From the NCBI GenBank assembly GCA_021776685.1, contig JAJFFJ010000003.1:39041-103040 (forward strand): a stretch of DNA of 64,000 bases. Reading direction: 5' to 3'. Position numbers and translations under genes: made by a program. The DNA is from Alphaproteobacteria bacterium. Its GTDB lineage: Bacteria > Pseudomonadota > Alphaproteobacteria > Bin65. Numbering within the stretch: position 1 is the stretch's first letter; the number at the start of each line of letters is the position of its first letter. Below, piece after piece: positions 56,182 through 64,000 of this stretch. The notes under the pieces were generated by a model, which saw only the letters and a program-made list of their open reading frames with translations, was not told the DNA's origin and made no database searches.

Positions 56182-56721
56182 ATGCGCATTGCGCTGGCCG
56201 CACTCACCATCTGCGCAACGACCCTAGCGCTGACTCCACCCGCTATAGCCGGAGACCCAATCGATCCGTTCGTCGGAAAGTATAAGGGCAAGGCCACATC
56301 CAAACTTGATGGAAAACTCACCGACCGTGACCTGAATTTCGAGATTAAGAAACACAGCGGCGGATTCAGCGTCCGCTGGGTGACCGTGATCCCGCGTGGA
56401 AATGGCACTACAAAACGCACCAGCTACCGCATCAGGTTCGACAAGACCCGCAAGATCATGCTGTTCTCGGCGGCCATGCGCCGCAATGCCTTCGGCGCGC
56501 CTGTGCCACTCGATCCGCTGAAAGGTGACCCCTACATGTGGGCGAGCATCCAAGGCAAGACGCTTGGTATCTATGGCGTCCACGTGACTTCAAATGGTGG
56601 ATACGAACTGCAGGTCTATGAACGCACACTTACCACGGGCGGCATGAAGCTCATGTTCAAGAGAATTCGGAATGGCAAGCCCTTGAAAGAGATATCCGGC
56701 TTCGCCAAGCGCGAGAAATAA
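56182..56721 (+). CDS. Secreted protein of unknown function
   Basis: The 179-residue protein has a Sec signal peptide (MRIALAALTICATTLALTPPAIAG). A basic, beta-rich mature part follows (GKYKGKATSKLDGKLTDRDLNFEIKKHSGGFSVRWVTVIPRG). No domain is recognised. The mature region repeats short DLxFxI and YxLxVYERT-like strands suggestive of a small beta-barrel or lipocalin-like fold, but that is a guess. It follows DUF3137 by 138 bases and stands before the cyclophilin. Confidence 0.7.
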   Translation: MRIALAALTICATTLALTPPAIAGDPIDPFVGKYKGKATSKLDGKLTDRDLNFEIKKHSGGFSVRWVTVIPRGNGTTKRTSYRIRFDKTRKIMLFSAAMRRNAFGAPVPLDPLKGDPYMWASIQGKTLGIYGVHVTSNGGYELQVYERTLTTGGMKLMFKRIRNGKPLKEISGFAKREK

Positions 56722-56804: not shown

Positions 56805-57371
56805 ATGAGGGTGAGGCACTTGCGTTTTGCTGTGCGCTGCATGGCTCTCTTTCTGTTCGTCGCGTCGGCCGGTGTCGCCGAAGCCAAAACGAAGAAGAAG
56901 GATCTGGAGAACATGCTGTACATGGAACTGAAGTCCGGTCGGGTGACGATCAAACTGCGTCCCGACCTGGCGCCGAATCACGTAGAACGCGTCAAGGAAT
57001 TGGTGCGTGCAAAGTTTTATGACGGAATCGTATTTCATCGGGTGATTCCAGGGTTCATGGCGCAGACCGGTGACCCGACCGGCACAGGTACCGGCGGATC
57101 CGACAAACCCGACCTGAAAGCGGAATTCTCCAAGGAACCGTTCAAGCGTGGAACGATCGGTGCTGCCCGGTCAGCAAGTCCTGACAGTGCCAACAGCCAG
57201 TGGTTCATCTGTTTTGAACCTGCATCGCACTTGAACAGCCAGTACACGGTCTGGGGCGAAATTGTCGAAGGCATGGAGCTTGTTGACAAGATTGCGCCAG
57301 GCGAACCACCGGCCACTCCGGACAAAATTGTCACTTTGCGGGTTGCCGCGGACGTCGAGGACGAGAGATAG
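56805..57371 (+). CDS. Cyclophilin-type peptidyl-prolyl isomerase, exported
   Basis: The 188-residue protein has a signal peptide (MRVRHLRFAVRCMALFLFVASAGVAEA) and a cyclophilin domain at about 38-185. Motifs include FYDGIVFHRVIPGFMAQTGDPTGTGTGG, FKRGTIGAARSASPDSANSQWFICFEPASHLNSQYTVWG and EIVEGMELVDKI. It catalyses proline isomerisation in the periplasm and helps folding. It lies 9 bases before the reductive-dehalogenase-like gene, so they are probably one operon. Confidence 0.95.
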   Translation: MRVRHLRFAVRCMALFLFVASAGVAEAKTKKKDLENMLYMELKSGRVTIKLRPDLAPNHVERVKELVRAKFYDGIVFHRVIPGFMAQTGDPTGTGTGGSDKPDLKAEFSKEPFKRGTIGAARSASPDSANSQWFICFEPASHLNSQYTVWGEIVEGMELVDKIAPGEPPATPDKIVTLRVAADVEDER

Positions 57372-57380
57372 GAGCGGCCC

Positions 57381-58358
57381 ATGACGGCAAAAGGTGAGAC
57401 GCCCTGGACCCCGCCGCCGGATATCGCCGCCAAAATGCCTGCGGACCTCTCCGGCAATACCGTCAATGGCTTGGGCGAGGCCGACCGGCGGTCTCCCTCC
57501 CCCATCATGTGGCATCAACCAAAGCGCGTCCCTGAATTCGCGGCGATCCAGCAGCACGTAAACGACAGGTATGAGTGCGAACCGCTGTTGACCGGGGTCT
57601 TCAATACGCCGGACCGTCGCGATCCACCGGTGCCCATCGCGGATGTATCGGAAGAAGACAGCGCTGAATCGTGGACAGCACGGGTCAAGGAATTTGCTCT
57701 GGCCAACGAAGCTGATCTTGTCGGCATTGCGCCTGTCGACCAGCACAATGTCTTCGAGGGCTTCACCGTCTCCAATCCCTGGGTCATCGTCCTGGGCGTC
57801 TATATGGACCACGACGAACTCTCCAAGGCGCCTGAGGCTGAGGCGGCCGCGGAAGTCGCCAAGCAGTATAACCGCGGCAACCGCGCGGCCAAAACGCTGC
57901 AGAACTGGATTCGCGGGCTCGGCCACGACGCCCATGGCCACGGCGGACCGGGCGCCGGGCCGATCCAGTTGGTCCCCTCTGCGCTTCGTGCCGGCTTCGG
58001 TGAATTGGGCAAGCATGGATCGATCATCAATCGGCAACTCGGCTCGTCGTTGCGCCTTGCCGGTGTCACTACCGACTTGCCTCTGATTCCCGACCAACAG
58101 GATGTGTTCGGCGCAGATGACTTCTGCACATCTTGCCAAATCTGCACGAATGCCTGCCCGCCGGACGCTATCTTTCGGGACAAGCAAACCGTACGAGGCG
58201 TCGACAAATGGTTCGTGAATTTCGATAAGTGCATGCCGTATTTTGCGCAGCAATGGGGTTGCGGCATCTGCATCGCAGTCTGTCCTTGGAGCCGTCCCGG
58301 CACTGCCCCGAAGCTGGCGGAAAAGATGACCCGCCGCCGCGAGCGGACGGCAGCCTGA
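57381..58358 (+). CDS. Reductive-dehalogenase-like 4Fe-4S protein (short)
   Basis: The 325-residue protein ends with two [4Fe-4S] motifs: CTSCQICTNAC (Cys 249, 252, 255, 259) and a second set at Cys 284, 294, 297 and 301 (MPYFAQQWGCGICIAVCPW). Upstream segments such as GFGELGKHGSIINRQLGSSLRL and ANEADLVGIAP resemble corrinoid reductive dehalogenases (RdhA); QueG is a related enzyme. It is shorter than RdhA (usually 450 or more) and lacks a Tat signal, so it is soluble. The substrate is unknown; dehalogenation is not shown. Corrinoid ligation cannot be judged from sequence alone. Confidence 0.75.
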   Translation: MTAKGETPWTPPPDIAAKMPADLSGNTVNGLGEADRRSPSPIMWHQPKRVPEFAAIQQHVNDRYECEPLLTGVFNTPDRRDPPVPIADVSEEDSAESWTARVKEFALANEADLVGIAPVDQHNVFEGFTVSNPWVIVLGVYMDHDELSKAPEAEAAAEVAKQYNRGNRAAKTLQNWIRGLGHDAHGHGGPGAGPIQLVPSALRAGFGELGKHGSIINRQLGSSLRLAGVTTDLPLIPDQQDVFGADDFCTSCQICTNACPPDAIFRDKQTVRGVDKWFVNFDKCMPYFAQQWGCGICIAVCPWSRPGTAPKLAEKMTRRRERTAA

Positions 58359-58370
58359 GATCAGCGGTCC

Positions 58371-58787
58371 ATGACATTCGAGTTGCATCCGCAATTGGAC
58401 GCTGACACGGCGGAAGTCACCCGGCTGGAGCTGTGCCGTGTTCAACTCATGGACGACACGACCTGGCCATGGCTGATCCTGGTGCCACAGATTGCGGGGC
58501 TGAAAGACCTCCACGACCTCGCGCCGGGCGACGACGCGGTGGCGATGGCGGAGATCCGACAGGCGAGCCGAGCGCTGCAGGCGCTCCACCGGCCAGACAA
58601 GATCAATGTCGCAGCACTGGGCAATCAGGTGCCGCAGTTGCATATCCATATTATCGCCCGGCATGTGGGCGATCCGGCCTGGCCAGGACCTGTCTGGGGT
58701 GCAGCGGCGCGGCAGCCCTACGACCGTGACGCCCGCGACGCGGCACTCGTGTCGATGCGCCAGGCCCTAACTAACGCTGCCACCTGA
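58371..58787 (+). CDS. HIT-domain protein
   Basis: The 138-residue protein has a HIT domain with the motif PQLHIHIIARH, in which the first histidine of the HxHxHxx triad is glutamine (QLHIHII). The core LHDLAPGDDAVAMAEIRQASRAL and the nucleotide-pocket region are present. HIT proteins hydrolyse nucleotide phosphoramidates or dinucleotide polyphosphates, but the Gln-for-His form is common in this small subgroup and its substrate is unclear. It follows the Fe-S protein by 12 bases and is probably cotranscribed with it. Confidence 0.9.
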   Translation: MTFELHPQLDADTAEVTRLELCRVQLMDDTTWPWLILVPQIAGLKDLHDLAPGDDAVAMAEIRQASRALQALHRPDKINVAALGNQVPQLHIHIIARHVGDPAWPGPVWGAAARQPYDRDARDAALVSMRQALTNAAT

Positions 58788-58800
58788 TAAGGCTCCTGCC

Positions 58801-59883
58801 ATGTCCGCCATCATCCAGTCCGCCAGCGCCGAATTTCTGCTCTATCCGCTGCCGGGCGCCGTCGGCGGTTCCGGTGTCACGGCCGTGGATGTTGTCGCCG
58901 TGGACCTCACCGATGCCGACGGCCAGACCGGCACCGGCTTCACCTACGGTCTGCGGGGCGGCGGGGCGGTCATCCGCGCGGCGGCTCAGGACTTGCTCGA
59001 TCGGCTGATTGTTGGCCAACCAGCGGATTCACCGATCGCGCTTTGGCGGCAGATGGATGCGTCGCTCAACCGATTGGGCCAAGGCGCCTATTACATTGCC
59101 ATAGCCGCCATCGATCTCGCCATCTGGGACCTGCACGCCAAGCAGCGGGCGGTCACCCTGGGCGAGGCGCTGGGTGGCAGACCGCGTACTGTGCCGGTCT
59201 ATGGATCAGGCGGCTATCGCCCCAACCAGACGCCAGAGGAGGCCGCAGCGCAGGCCGTCAGGCAGGCCAAAGCTGGCTTCCCGCTGGTCAAGTTGCGACT
59301 GGCCGGGGACCGCACCGACATCGCCCGCATGGCCGCCGTGCGCGACGCCCTGCCCGCCAATGTCGACATGGCCGTCGATACCAACGAAAAGTGCGATCTG
59401 AACCGCGCCCAGTGGCTGGCACGGGAATGCGCCGAGCTGTCTGTCCTTTGGTTCGAGGAGCCGCTGGCCGCAACCGACTTTGAAGCCCATGCGGCGCTGG
59501 CCCGTACGTCACCCGTGCCTATCGCCACCGGTGAGCATCTACAAGGTGCGGTCGAATGCATGCCGCTTTTCCGCGACAGATCCTGCAGCATTATTCAGCC
59601 CGACCTGGCGGCAATCGGCGGCATTACCGAGGCCCTTCGGGTAACCCACCTGGCGGAGCATTTCGGCATCTCCTGCGCCCCGCATTTCCTGCCTGCGCTG
59701 TTTATTCACCTGGCGGCAGCCTGCCCCAGCCTGACCTGGCTGGAGGACTTTCCGCTGCTGGAACCGCTGTTCGATATCGATATTGAGATCGACGACCATC
59801 AACGGATGACACCGGGTAGCCGGCCTGGCCACGGCCTGCTGTGGGCGGACGGTGCGCGGGAGGCCTACCGCGTCGTGGAATAA
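58801..59883 (+). CDS. Enolase-superfamily mandelate racemase/muconate lactonizing enzyme-type protein
   Basis: The 360-residue enzyme has the N-terminal capping domain and the (beta/alpha)7-beta barrel of the MR/MLE group. By the numbering that matches mandelate racemase, metal ligands are D193, E219 (WFEEP) and E245 (TGEHLQ). H295 (CAPHF) is the likely second base. The catalytic lysine pair KxK is K164-L-R166, so the second lysine is arginine. Enzymes of the group dehydrate or racemise sugar acids and similar carboxylates. The substrate is open. It follows the HIT gene by 13 bases. Confidence 0.9.
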   Translation: MSAIIQSASAEFLLYPLPGAVGGSGVTAVDVVAVDLTDADGQTGTGFTYGLRGGGAVIRAAAQDLLDRLIVGQPADSPIALWRQMDASLNRLGQGAYYIAIAAIDLAIWDLHAKQRAVTLGEALGGRPRTVPVYGSGGYRPNQTPEEAAAQAVRQAKAGFPLVKLRLAGDRTDIARMAAVRDALPANVDMAVDTNEKCDLNRAQWLARECAELSVLWFEEPLAATDFEAHAALARTSPVPIATGEHLQGAVECMPLFRDRSCSIIQPDLAAIGGITEALRVTHLAEHFGISCAPHFLPALFIHLAAACPSLTWLEDFPLLEPLFDIDIEIDDHQRMTPGSRPGHGLLWADGAREAYRVVE

Positions 59884-60379: not shown

Positions 60380-62131
60380 CTACTCGGCGGCCTGCATCTC
60401 TGCCGGGCGACCGGCAAAGCCTTCCAGGCGTGGTGGCGCCGCACGACTGCCGGAGCCACGGCCCGGCACCATGGGCATGGCGAAGCCCTGCTGATAGCTC
60501 GCGCGCACGATCGCCGTAAATTTCCAAAGGAAGCCGCCGGCAATAGCTGCCAGACCACCGACCAGAAAGCCCATGAGCGCGGGTGCGAACAGGCCCACGG
60601 CAAATCCGAGGATCACCAGAACATGGCCAATCAAGTGCAATGGCAGGCTGACACCATTCAGCACATTGCGGCTAAGAGGTGGAATGCCGCGGCTTTTCGC
60701 GGTGGTCCGGTAAAGATGCCAGAGCACCGCATTGACAAGCGCCAACACGATTCCGGCGGCCGCGGCCCATTGGATCCCGCCAACGGTTGCCGCAAGTAAC
60801 AGAAGGTTGCCGGCTTCTCCTCCGAGGATGACCCATATCGTCACCGCGCCGGCGGCGCAGATCAGCCCTGCTCCTTCGAGCAAGCCAGTGGCAATGATCA
60901 TCCATGGCATCAGGGGCACCCGCCAGTTGGGAATCCCGCGCGCTTTGAAGAGAATCATCGCCTGACAGAAAAGGAATGCCAGCGCCGCAATACCGGCCAC
61001 CGCAAACGCCACGGCATGATGGGTGAAAAGCCCCGCCAGCACGCCGGCGCCAAAGATTGGCACGACATAGAGCTCGCGGGTCATCCAACTGGTCTGGAAG
61101 CGCGTGATCGCCCGCCAGAAGCGCATCTTGCGGCCGATCTTGAGGAACACGAAAAACAAGCCGACGCACATCAACGCGCCCGCCCCGAAATTGAACCAGG
61201 CCAACGCCGGCGCTGGCAGATCGGCTGCGAGATAGAGCACCCACGCCAGGAAGGCCGCGCCTGACGCCAAGCCACCAAAACACCAGTTCATCGCCGCCCG
61301 CCAGTCCCAGAAGGTTTGGCGTTTGCCCACCAACGGGTTGACCGGATCAGCCATTTCTTCTTCGCTGACAGCGTTGGCGACGACGGCGGTTTCACCTTCG
61401 CGCCCCGGCACAGCAGGCGTCGTATAGAGATATTTGATCTGCGGATTGGTGCCCAGCTCTTCATGCATCTGGAAGAACTGGCTATCGTTGGTCAGCTTGG
61501 AGACCTCGCTGTTCGGGTCTTTGTAGTCGCCGAATTTGATCGCCTGGGCGATGCAAGCGGCCGAACAGGCGGGCGTTGCAGCTTCGTCGATACCCGGGGT
61601 CAAACCCTGGGCGAGGCCGTCGTCGACCCGGTCTACGCAAAACGTGCATTTCTGGGCAACACCGAGTCGGTCCTTATCGAAGACCGCCTCTTCCTGCACA
61701 GTCAGGTCATGGCCATCATAGTAACCGTGGATGTCATGGGCGATGGTCCGCGCCTGATAGGGGCAGGACACCGCGCAATAGCCGCAGCCGATGCAGACGT
61801 CGTAATCCATCGTGACCAACCCATCGGCGCGCTGTTTGGTGGCGCCGGTGGGGCAAACAGGGACGCAGGGCGGCTCCTCGCAGTGCTGGCAGCCGACCAC
61901 CAGAAACTGGCGCTGAACGTTGGGATATTCACCCTGCTCGATATCGATCACACGCCGCCACTGTATATCCGGCAGGGTGCTGTTCCAGTGCTTGCACGCA
62001 ATGGTGCATGTCTGGCAGCCGACGCAGCGATTCACGTCAATCGTCATTCCCCAACGCGGGGTATGATTGGGATCGTGGCACAAAGCCTCAGTGGGAGACT
62101 GCGGCTGCGTCTCGGTAGAACCTTCACTCAT
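60380..62131 (-). CDS. Fused 4Fe-4S electron-transfer and membrane-anchor subunit of a molybdopterin oxidoreductase
   Basis: The 583-residue protein joins a DmsB/PhsB-type ferredoxin domain (about 1-260) to a membrane-anchor domain with about eight helices (about 285-560, NrfD/DmsC-like). The Fe-S part has four cluster motifs: CVGCQTCTIAC, CQHCEEPPCVPVC, CIGCGYCAVSC, and CTFC with PACSAAC. The two parts are usually separate genes, so this is a fusion. Starting at 62131 (MSEGSTETQP) it follows the catalytic subunit by 8 bases. The frame extends to 62584 inside that gene but the extension is not family-like. The pair resembles PadBCD-type enzymes; the substrate is not proven. Confidence 0.85.
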   Translation of the reverse strand: MSEGSTETQPQSPTEALCHDPNHTPRWGMTIDVNRCVGCQTCTIACKHWNSTLPDIQWRRVIDIEQGEYPNVQRQFLVVGCQHCEEPPCVPVCPTGATKQRADGLVTMDYDVCIGCGYCAVSCPYQARTIAHDIHGYYDGHDLTVQEEAVFDKDRLGVAQKCTFCVDRVDDGLAQGLTPGIDEAATPACSAACIAQAIKFGDYKDPNSEVSKLTNDSQFFQMHEELGTNPQIKYLYTTPAVPGREGETAVVANAVSEEEMADPVNPLVGKRQTFWDWRAAMNWCFGGLASGAAFLAWVLYLAADLPAPALAWFNFGAGALMCVGLFFVFLKIGRKMRFWRAITRFQTSWMTRELYVVPIFGAGVLAGLFTHHAVAFAVAGIAALAFLFCQAMILFKARGIPNWRVPLMPWMIIATGLLEGAGLICAAGAVTIWVILGGEAGNLLLLAATVGGIQWAAAAGIVLALVNAVLWHLYRTTAKSRGIPPLSRNVLNGVSLPLHLIGHVLVILGFAVGLFAPALMGFLVGGLAAIAGGFLWKFTAIVRASYQQGFAMPMVPGRGSGSRAAPPRLEGFAGRPAEMQAAE

Positions 62132-62139
62132 GTCAACAC

Positions 62140-64000
62140 TCACTCTGCGGCTTGGGCGAAGGAGATATCGGCAATGCCGGTATCTTTTGCCGAGCCGAGT
62201 TCGTCCACTGCCAGCGGTTTTTGCAGGTGCCGCTCGGACGCCTTGTAGATTTTCACACAGGTGATATCCGACCCACTGCCCGTACTGTCTGTCAGCTTGA
62301 GCGAGATATCGGTGACCGAGTTCAGGCTTGGCCGGTTGAGGTCCTTCGCATAGGGCGTCTTCCAATGATCGAACTGGCCGATCATCAGCACCGTGTCCGG
62401 GCGGATGCCCTCGCGCAGCACGGCTGGGCCCTCGGTACGACCCGTGACCGATTCGATGACCACCTGATCGTCTTCTTCGATGCCAAGCTCCCGTGCTCGG
62501 CCCTTGTTGATGACCACGCCTTTGTGACCAGCGATATTCTCCGCCATCTCGTTGATCAGCGGCAGGCCGACGTTGGCGCCCCAAGCATACTGGAAGGAAC
62601 GCGCCGTCAATGCCCAGAAGGGATACTCCTCCGGCTCACGGTTGAAGTCCTTCACATAGTCTGTCCAGATTTTCGGAAAGGACTCATAGGTCGGCATGAA
62701 TTCGTATTCGCGCAGCTGGGTTTCCCACCAATCGACGCCGATCTCGCTCAGGCGCACCGCCAACTCGCGGCCGTGCCGGGTCAAACGCTCCTGATAGGGC
62801 AGCTCGTAACGCAGTCCCTTGGCCTTCATCGCCGGGTGGATGTACCAATCAATCTGGTTGAAATCCTTGAGCATGTAGCCGTGCTCTCGGAACCAGTCGA
62901 GGTCATGCACTTCCTTGCCCTGGGTCATATCCCAGGACACCGCCTTGCACATGTTGTCCCAGACCTGTTCGGATACCGGCGGCTCGCCCATTGGCAGCGA
63001 GTAGTCATACTTGTCCTCGCGCGCCAGCCGTGAACCGGCAGCGCCATCGTTGATCTTCTCGATGTATTCATCGAGGATCCCCGCCTCCTGGGCAAACCGG
63101 GTGATGATGTCCGACATGTCCATCGTGTCGCCTACCGGGTCAATGGCCTTCGCCCGAATTGTCCAACCTTCGTGATGCCAGAAATTTTCCTGGAACTTGG
63201 TACCGCCCAGACGAATCAGCTGGGTCGATTCCAGGTCCGTGCTCTCCGGCAACAGCACGTCTGCGAAGTGGTTGGTCTCGTCCATTGTGTAGGTGAACGC
63301 GATGATGAACGGGAATTCGGCCAGCCGGTTGGCCACTTCCGGCGCGTTCCACGAGCTGATCGACGGATTGGTGCGATAACACATCCAGATGTCCGGCGGG
63401 TCGTGGCGCGGCCAGTTATTCGGTTGGTGCTTCTGGAATAGCCAAGGCAGATGCGCCGGTCCGAGCGCCGCGGACCAGGGGCTGTCGGATACCAGAGGCA
63501 CCAGCGTCTTGTACGCATTGCGGATGTGCGGCTCACGGTTCCAGGCATTGGACGACGTGGCGTTGAACTGATAGCGCATAAAGCCGTCTTCGCCCGGAAT
63601 GACGGAGCCAACGCGGGACGCGGCAGGACGAACAAGTTTGACCGCCGTACCCAGTGTACCGCCCGGCACCTCAAGCGCGCCCATCAACACGGCCAACATG
63701 GTCCGAGCCCAACAGGTGTGATAGCCGCCCCAGCCGTTATTGACGCTCTTACCCAGCAGGATGGCCACCGGCCGGAATGGCAGGGTTTGCCCTTCGATCT
63801 CGATGGTTTCGCCGACGCAGGCATGTGCGATGTATTCATCGGCGACACGGCGGATTGTATCAGCCGGCACCTCGCTTTCGGCTTCCGCCCATTCCGGCGT
63901 GTATTGCGCCATATGCTCCAGCAGCAACTGGAAAGACGGCTTTACGTCAATGTCCTCGTGCTCCCAACGATGGTTGTCAGGGCCAAGTTCGTATCCGGAA
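62140..64000 (-). CDS. Molybdopterin-dependent oxidoreductase catalytic subunit (truncated by window edge)
   Basis: The visible 620 residues run to the right edge, so the N-terminus with the Fe-S site and signal is missing. The sequence has DMSO-reductase-family traits, such as HTCWARTMLAVLMGALEVPGGTLG, FADVLLPESTDLES, and a C-terminal molybdopterin dinucleotide-binding domain with FQYAWGANVGLPLINEMAENIAG and RARELGIEEDDQVVIES. The closest named comparison by memory is the catalytic subunit PadB of phenylacetyl-CoA:acceptor oxidoreductase, but perhydroxylation or other substrates are possible. It is followed by the fused electron-transfer/membrane subunit. Confidence 0.87.
   Translation of the reverse strand, partial: SGYELGPDNHRWEHEDIDVKPSFQLLLEHMAQYTPEWAEAESEVPADTIRRVADEYIAHACVGETIEIEGQTLPFRPVAILLGKSVNNGWGGYHTCWARTMLAVLMGALEVPGGTLGTAVKLVRPAASRVGSVIPGEDGFMRYQFNATSSNAWNREPHIRNAYKTLVPLVSDSPWSAALGPAHLPWLFQKHQPNNWPRHDPPDIWMCYRTNPSISSWNAPEVANRLAEFPFIIAFTYTMDETNHFADVLLPESTDLESTQLIRLGGTKFQENFWHHEGWTIRAKAIDPVGDTMDMSDIITRFAQEAGILDEYIEKINDGAAGSRLAREDKYDYSLPMGEPPVSEQVWDNMCKAVSWDMTQGKEVHDLDWFREHGYMLKDFNQIDWYIHPAMKAKGLRYELPYQERLTRHGRELAVRLSEIGVDWWETQLREYEFMPTYESFPKIWTDYVKDFNREPEEYPFWALTARSFQYAWGANVGLPLINEMAENIAGHKGVVINKGRARELGIEEDDQVVIESVTGRTEGPAVLREGIRPDTVLMIGQFDHWKTPYAKDLNRPSLNSVTDISLKLTDSTGSGSDITCVKIYKASERHLQKPLAVDELGSAKDTGIADISFAQAAE

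Follow-up and report, generated by a model that had tools for sequence, protein, structure and literature searches.

A short protein predicted to be a cytosolic RdhA-type cobalamin reductase, from a widespread and apparently uncharacterised subfamily

The window, a 64,000-nucleotide stretch of alphaproteobacterial DNA, contains an open reading frame (ORF) whose product resembles reductive dehalogenases (RdhA) and is only 325 amino acids in length. The question raised by this locus is whether the protein is an orphan RdhA relative, as the original prediction described it, a QueG-type tRNA epoxyqueuosine reductase, or a related reductase acting on other substrates. In the ORF listing, the gene starts with ATG and its boundaries are exactly 57381-58358 on the plus strand. 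It is tightly packed, lying 9 bp after a cyclophilin gene and 12 bp before a HIT gene. The gene and its neighbours are as follows.

56805..57371, plus strand, cyclophilin-type peptidyl-prolyl isomerase (Pfam PF00160, 1.7e-40), the upstream neighbour, conserved in 3 of 3 ortholog loci
57381..58358, plus strand, predicted short RdhA-type cobalamin/2x[4Fe-4S] reductase, 325 aa (ORF, NCBIfam, PDB sequence match, AlphaFold2 model, VIA-align)
58371..58787, plus strand, HIT-domain protein (Pfam PF01230, 3.2e-13), present in 2 of 3 ortholog loci
58801..59883, plus strand, enolase-superfamily (MR/MLE) enzyme (Pfam PF13378, MR_MLE_C, 6.5e-50), found in 0 of 3 ortholog loci

These Pfam matches agree with the neighbours named in the original prediction. 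The cyclophilin is probably exported, judging by eye from its signal-like N-terminus. Farther along the window (60380-64000, minus strand) is a molybdopterin oxidoreductase cluster with PhsA/TtrB/DsrO-like members, all below curated cut-offs. The start of its 734-amino-acid ORF at 60380-62584 was probably called too far upstream.

The protein had been described as short and lacking both a Tat signal and an adjacent anchor partner, and the motif scan, the hydropathy scan and Pfam analysis of the neighbours bear this out. The Tat motif RRx[FLMI] is absent from residues 1-70. There is no hydrophobic helix, the best 19-residue Kyte-Doolittle mean being 1.25 overall and 0.07 within the first 60 residues. 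No RdhB-type anchor gene is adjacent, the flanking genes being those for the cyclophilin and the HIT protein. A respiratory RdhA was rejected on these three grounds. No electron-donor domain is fused to the protein, and no halogen-specific marker is present among the genes adjoining it.

Comparison with the RdhA and QueG profiles places the protein nearer to RdhA. Its best NCBIfam match is the RDH model TIGR02486 (2.1e-33, 116.5 bits; cut-off 160.35), while the QueG model TIGR00276 gives 1.4e-16 and 60.5 bits (cut-off 200), so that both scores fall below their cut-offs. Pfam detects only 4Fe-4S domains, with Fer4_7 at the first motif. The closest solved relatives by sequence are NpRdhA (1.7e-27) and PceA (2.8e-23), against 4.3e-10 for QueG, and the family profile matches the same structures at 5.4e-45, 1.3e-41, and 1.6e-11, respectively. 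At the sequence level, matches to RdhAs of solved structure run from 1.7e-27 to 3.4e-23, values that put the homology well outside chance.

The family alignment (A3) has 79 rows, consisting of the window protein, 68 of 80 loci from a genome collection, and 10 ORFs from genomes of the same order. Twelve near-duplicate loci were left out (L082, L083, L089, L102, L111, L120, L128, L135, L136, L138, L140, and L145), and the 68 locus rows are matched segments, some of them partial proteins. All 79 members match TIGR02486 at 1e-10, with a best E-value of 2e-36, and all 79 match TIGR00276 at the same threshold. Because that best E-value is only slightly below the 2.1e-33 of the window protein, it appears that no member reaches the TIGR02486 cut-off, a reading taken from the best E-value and not from row-by-row scores. 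PF13486 is matched by 0 of 79 rows at 1e-3. The eight Fe-S cysteines, the tyrosine, a basic residue at the 488 position, and the core fold of the RdhA superfamily are all present. Since the TIGR02486 and PF13486 thresholds are not reached, the family is treated as a subfamily of its own, RdhA-type in its core, and not as a member under either model.

The AlphaFold2 model, computed from the 79-row alignment, has a pLDDT of 95.3 and a pTM of 0.93. VIA-align superimposes model residues 35-322 on NpRdhA 280-591 (6zxx) with a Z of 28.4 over 285 residues at 2.7 A. The membrane-bound RDH 8q4h follows with a Z of 28.2, and PceA with a Z of 27.5 (model residues 31-319). QueG has a Z of 16.0 over 194 residues (model 94-308), and MMACHC (7.3) and CblD rank after it, at Z 6 to 7.3. 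Foldseek gives the same order, with PceA at 8.3e-19, NpRdhA at 1.5e-16, and QueG at 1.0e-9. The N-terminal segment, approximately residues 31-93 of the model, aligns with the RdhAs and not with QueG. The original prediction had proposed looking for a cobalamin pocket in a structure model. The fold does match cobalamin-containing RdhAs, and the pocket itself is one that we infer from the fold and the alignment.

The motifs and active-site residues within the gene are listed below.

57450..57479, plus strand, family N-terminal motif SGNxxNGLGE, residues 24-33 (N26 in 76 and G30 in 77 of 79 rows)
57867..57869, plus strand, Tyr163 codon, equivalent to NpRdhA Tyr426 and PceA Tyr246, presumed proton donor (phmmer alignment to 4ras; Y in 78 of 79 rows)
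57993..58022, plus strand, GFGELGKHGS, residues 205-214, presumed corrinoid-binding loop (aligned with RdhA and QueG rows)
58053..58055, plus strand, Arg225 codon, at the position of NpRdhA Lys488 (alignment to 4ras; R in 79 of 79 rows)
58125..58157, plus strand, first 4Fe-4S motif, Cys249/252/255/259 (Cys in 79 of 79 rows; Pfam Fer4_7)
58230..58283, plus strand, second 4Fe-4S motif, Cys284/294/297/301 (Cys in 79 of 79 rows)

The protein contains GFGELGKHGSII and, as the original prediction said, both Fe-S motifs (C249-C259 and C284-C301), and all eight cysteines are kept throughout the family. The GFGELGKHGSxI region, previously called typical of RdhA, turned out otherwise; in the same alignment, the loop resembles GLGWTGKHS of QueG more than it does GLGEYGRHG and its like in the RdhA rows. 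The rows were gathered with the patterns [AS]GxG[EQ]LGKHG and VRGxxKW[YF]V[DN], so conservation inside both motifs, GFGELGKHGS included, is partly by construction. Residues Y163 and R225 lie outside these patterns. The sole exception at Y163 is a paralog of the same genome (G000_C8), which has Ile. Arg225 also falls at what we take to be the position of PceA Arg305. This placement agrees with the spacing from Tyr246 and Asn272, which are named in PMC4646009.

Two sets of substitutions set the protein apart from solved relatives. Phe288, present in 79 of 79 rows, occupies the position of NpRdhA Arg552; the key substrate-binding and catalytic residues of NpRdhA include Tyr426, Lys488, and R552 (PMC10463259, in part), and the substrate is therefore probably other than halophenols. 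The conserved residues of QueG include a D100-Y101-H102 motif and D130 (PMC4646009, in part). D100, H102, and D130 are missing from the window protein, which has Q162-Y163-N164 and Gly191 at the Asp130 position, the latter read manually from the E. coli QueG and window sequences against the published QueG residues. In the MAFFT row, the catalytic region of E. coli QueG is shifted by about five residues from D-Y-H, and the published motif was used instead.

At least 590 pattern matches were found in the genome collection, and at least 549 of these encode a relative at tblastn E <= 1e-3, a set that may extend beyond the short family. Among the best 80 of the at least 549, 77 are titled metagenome-assembled genomes (MAGs), mostly of Alphaproteobacteria, Gammaproteobacteria, and Acidimicrobiia, and a few carry a Betaproteobacteria or Burkholderiales, Chloroflexi, or Saprospiraceae label. 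The remaining three come from Luminiphilus syltensis NOR5-1B, Pseudomaricurvus alkylphenolicus KCTC 32386, and Kordiimonadales bacterium IMCC3096. Luminiphilus lies within the aerobic OM60/NOR5 clade (PMC3679898, in part). Relatives occur in all 11 genomes of the order, the host included, and in each genome the best E-value is at most 8.3e-84. In the class sample, 21 of 289 genomes reach 1e-45 against the family profile, and 19 of these score more than 240 bits; the best matches of the other two (G122 and G288) are below 190 bits and may be another RdhA type. Plasmid carriage was considered and rejected; protein matches occur in 36 plasmid records, none over 80% of the query. No paper on this exact family is among the PMC full-text matches listed, judged by title and the start of the abstract. 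The subfamily is distinct and widespread and, judging by these searches, uncharacterised.

In the tree, the window protein groups with its three orthologs (support 100/88). The forks separating the short family from RdhA proper have moderate support (86/85 and 94/81). The 86/85 fork holds 90 short-family rows and is drawn open, and eight short rows of the C67/C135 type branch apart; the tree does not show all short proteins as a single clade. QueG and PceA are on long branches that make their placement unsure, and the tree was used only for the grouping of the window protein with its orthologs.

The protein is not an orphan, either in the genome collection or at home. In the host genome (4.54 Mb, 98.85% complete), TIGR02486 gives 18 matches at 1e-3, including twelve RdhA-like ORFs at E <= 1.5e-28. 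Five of the twelve are above the TIGR02486 cut-off (C136, C97, two on C45, and C91), and seven are below it (C135, the window, C157, two on C140, C67, and C8). Of these seven, six share the short type of the window protein, and its five counterparts are 41-47% identical to it. The seventh, on C157, is a second short type with 34% identity. PF13486 identifies four proteins of the genome above its cut-off, and the window protein is absent from this set. A true QueG is encoded by a separate gene on C132 (TIGR00276, 451.4 bits).

Several of these paralogs have settings of their own. The further short paralogs on C8, C140, C67, and C135 are loci L047-L050. The C140 pair is in tandem; a cupin gene flanks it on one side, and a CoA-ligase gene lies one gene further out on the other. 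The second short type (L051:1682-2746, beginning MDGISKFRSP...) lies beside DSBA-fold, flavodoxin-fold, and phytanoyl-CoA dioxygenase-like genes, of which the flavodoxin-fold one may supply an electron donor. The five above-cut-off RdhAs (L052, L053, L054, and L055) lack any Tat-like motif. Adjacent ORF pairs at C96:299562-301143 and C50:10277-11598 have weak, short-stretch matches to QueG/RDH models.

The original prediction also placed the protein in an aerobe-like context. The host genome has two COX1-family genes (PF00115), which suggests, and does not prove, aerobic life; PF00115 also takes in nitric oxide reductases. Two cobalamin riboswitches were found. A search of the genome for cobyric acid synthase (TIGR00313) gave no match, so the cofactor may need importing. 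Together these features would fit an organism that uses oxygen and takes up corrinoid from outside.

Three further genomes from the host's taxonomic family carry close orthologs, 61-73% identical. The cyclophilin gene adjoins the ortholog in all three and the HIT gene is found in two; this linkage, confined to close orthologs, is probably uninformative on substrate. Two of the three ortholog loci also have a match to the small secreted-type gene at 56182, at a greater distance. A gene of the CoA-ligase cluster adjoins the RdhA-like gene in two of the three loci, one of them Pfam-checked. A functional link to the enolase-superfamily gene is unsupported, this gene being found in none of the ortholog loci and having one distant match (29%) in L107.

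A wider scan by Pfam covered 118 operonic neighbours (118 of 122 listed, with the four window genes left out and neighbours of the host's non-family RdhAs included). Gene calls at the relatives' loci came from a codon-score caller and are rough. Between them, the 118 neighbours hit 120 Pfam families, and no single shared catabolic neighbour was found. AMP-binding CoA ligases are commonest (8 of 118), followed by short-chain dehydrogenases (5 of 118). The four cyclophilins in the scan are those of the window and the three orthologs. A tryptophan halogenase gene (L062:5577-7163; PF04820, 1.3e-138) lies approximately 3 kb from a short-type paralog in G008, with two gene calls between. In two Gammaproteobacteria/Woeseia MAGs, PrnB-type genes, of a PrnB cluster and a pyridoxal-decarboxylase cluster (L127:1797-4582 and L131:5225-7936), are upstream of RdhA-like genes, directly in L131 and with one gene between in L127; the L127 pair only was singly Pfam-checked.

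On the model, the window protein is a minimal, predicted cytosolic class III cobalamin reductase of the RdhA type. The reading we think most likely, at somewhat better than even odds, is that it works like a cytosolic catabolic reductive dehalogenase, acting on a presumed halogenated substrate. Counted for this reading are the RDH model as best NCBIfam match, the RdhA fold, Y163 and R225, the separate QueG, the clear RdhA paralogs, and the two riboswitches. Counted against it are Phe288, the varied neighbours, the absence of a fused donor, the failure to find TIGR00313, the sub-cut-off scores, and the moderate tree forks.

For dehalogenation we infer the following scheme, including its cofactor content, electron donor, halogenated substrate, and dimer. 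A donor encoded elsewhere (a ferredoxin, flavodoxin, or NAD(P)H oxidoreductase) would reduce the distal [4Fe-4S] cluster, with the putative ligands C249, C252, C255, and C301 assigned by QueG ligand order. From there, electrons would travel through the proximal cluster (C259, C284, C294, and C297) to cobalamin in the base-off state, bound between the ferredoxin module and the 184-231 region. The reduced cobalamin would strip a halogen from the substrate, a small organohalide; Tyr163 would donate the proton, with Arg225 in a stabilising role. The dehalogenated product would go on into general catabolism, and in some relatives the neighbouring AMP-dependent CoA ligase may activate an acid. The protein is perhaps a PceA-like dimer.

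The main rival, which has a real but smaller chance of being right, is that the same RdhA-fold cobalamin/Fe-S reductase acts on a non-organohalide substrate, for example by reductively removing another leaving group, or by reducing a CoA thioester or an epoxide, as part of aromatic or terpenoid catabolism. It would fit the invariant Phe at the NpRdhA R552 position and the lead of CoA ligases and short-chain dehydrogenases among the neighbours, and QueG provides a case of non-dehalogenating chemistry with the same redox core (PMC4646009, in part). Against it are the tyrosine and basic residue, a fold that is RdhA-like over nearly its whole length, and the clear RdhA paralogs in the genome.

A catalytically inactive corrinoid-binding protein, such as a B12 carrier or processing protein of the related MMACHC fold, is improbable. 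In the structural ranking, MMACHC and CblD come directly after QueG, and the paralog on C8, with its catalytic Tyr replaced by Ile, could be such a case. However, the eight cysteines, R225, and F288 are invariant and Y163 nearly so, and MMACHC is without a ferredoxin module (PMC4646009, in part). QueG orthology, which the original prediction had named as the alternative to check, is rejected as very improbable even for a paralog; the family-wide TIGR00276 matches and the QueG-like GKH(G)S loop are outweighed by a score of 60.5 against 200 bits, the separate QueG gene, the loss of D100, H102, and D130, a Z of 16.0 to QueG against 28.4 to NpRdhA, and a protein end at residue 325 that leaves no room for the C-terminal helical-repeat domain.

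Four known systems come nearest to the protein. The protein shares with PceA, a respiratory tetrachloroethene RDase, the core fold, the Tyr246 position, and presumably the Arg305 position, but it lacks a Tat motif and an adjacent anchor gene and is approximately 140 residues shorter than the 464-residue PDB chain. With QueG it shares the class III redox core, the catalytic Tyr, and the GKHS-like loop, but not the D-Y-H motif, D130, or the C-terminal repeat domain. In NpRdhA, BhbA, and JtRdhA the cobalamin domain is duplicated, with one copy vestigial, and a reductase domain is usually fused as well (PMC10463259, in part). Like them, the window protein has no Tat motif, two predicted [4Fe-4S] clusters, the Tyr426 and basic 488 positions, and the core fold over model residues 35-322; unlike them, it is a single 325-amino-acid core covering NpRdhA 280-591, without the duplicated domain, and has Arg for Lys488 and Phe for Arg552. 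The cytosolic RDases Ros_A3X954 of Roseobacter and A0A2T7UTL8 of Pararhodobacter similarly have no Tat signal and come from a predominantly aerobic host group (PMC13101508, in part). Ros_A3X954 carries PF13486, whereas the window family does not. In its Fe-S motifs it looks closer to the host's C45 pair, whose motifs (CNICQKCADACP and CAICMRVCP) hardly differ from the ones given in print for the active Roseobacter debrominase, a likeness read from the printed motifs (PMC13101508, in part).

Cytosolic RDases are already known, and the new part is a compact, unannotated, widespread subfamily. It may, tentatively, be a large unrecognised family of minimal soluble RdhA-type B12 reductases that carries out a hidden cytosolic dehalogenation of natural organohalides in Alphaproteobacteria, Gammaproteobacteria, and Acidimicrobiia. 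Many of the hosts would be uncultured and some cultured, with aerobes among them, and the host genome would hold six members. The substrates would possibly be acids or CoA thioesters from the adjacent CoA ligases of some relatives. Such a family would have escaped notice by falling below PF13486 and TIGR02486. A recent study aimed at finding new RDases drew its sequence network from PF13486, and members without that domain would be missing there (PMC13101508, in part).

The cultured hosts of relatives (Luminiphilus, Pseudomaricurvus, and Kordiimonadales IMCC3096) make the question testable, and a small, helix-free protein should be easier to produce than respiratory RdhAs. Should the family not dehalogenate, it would form a large group of class III B12 enzymes with other chemistry. 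If it does, reductive dehalogenation beyond organohalide-respiring anaerobes would be wider than PF13486 surveys can show, with a bearing on the natural halogen cycle and on bioremediation.
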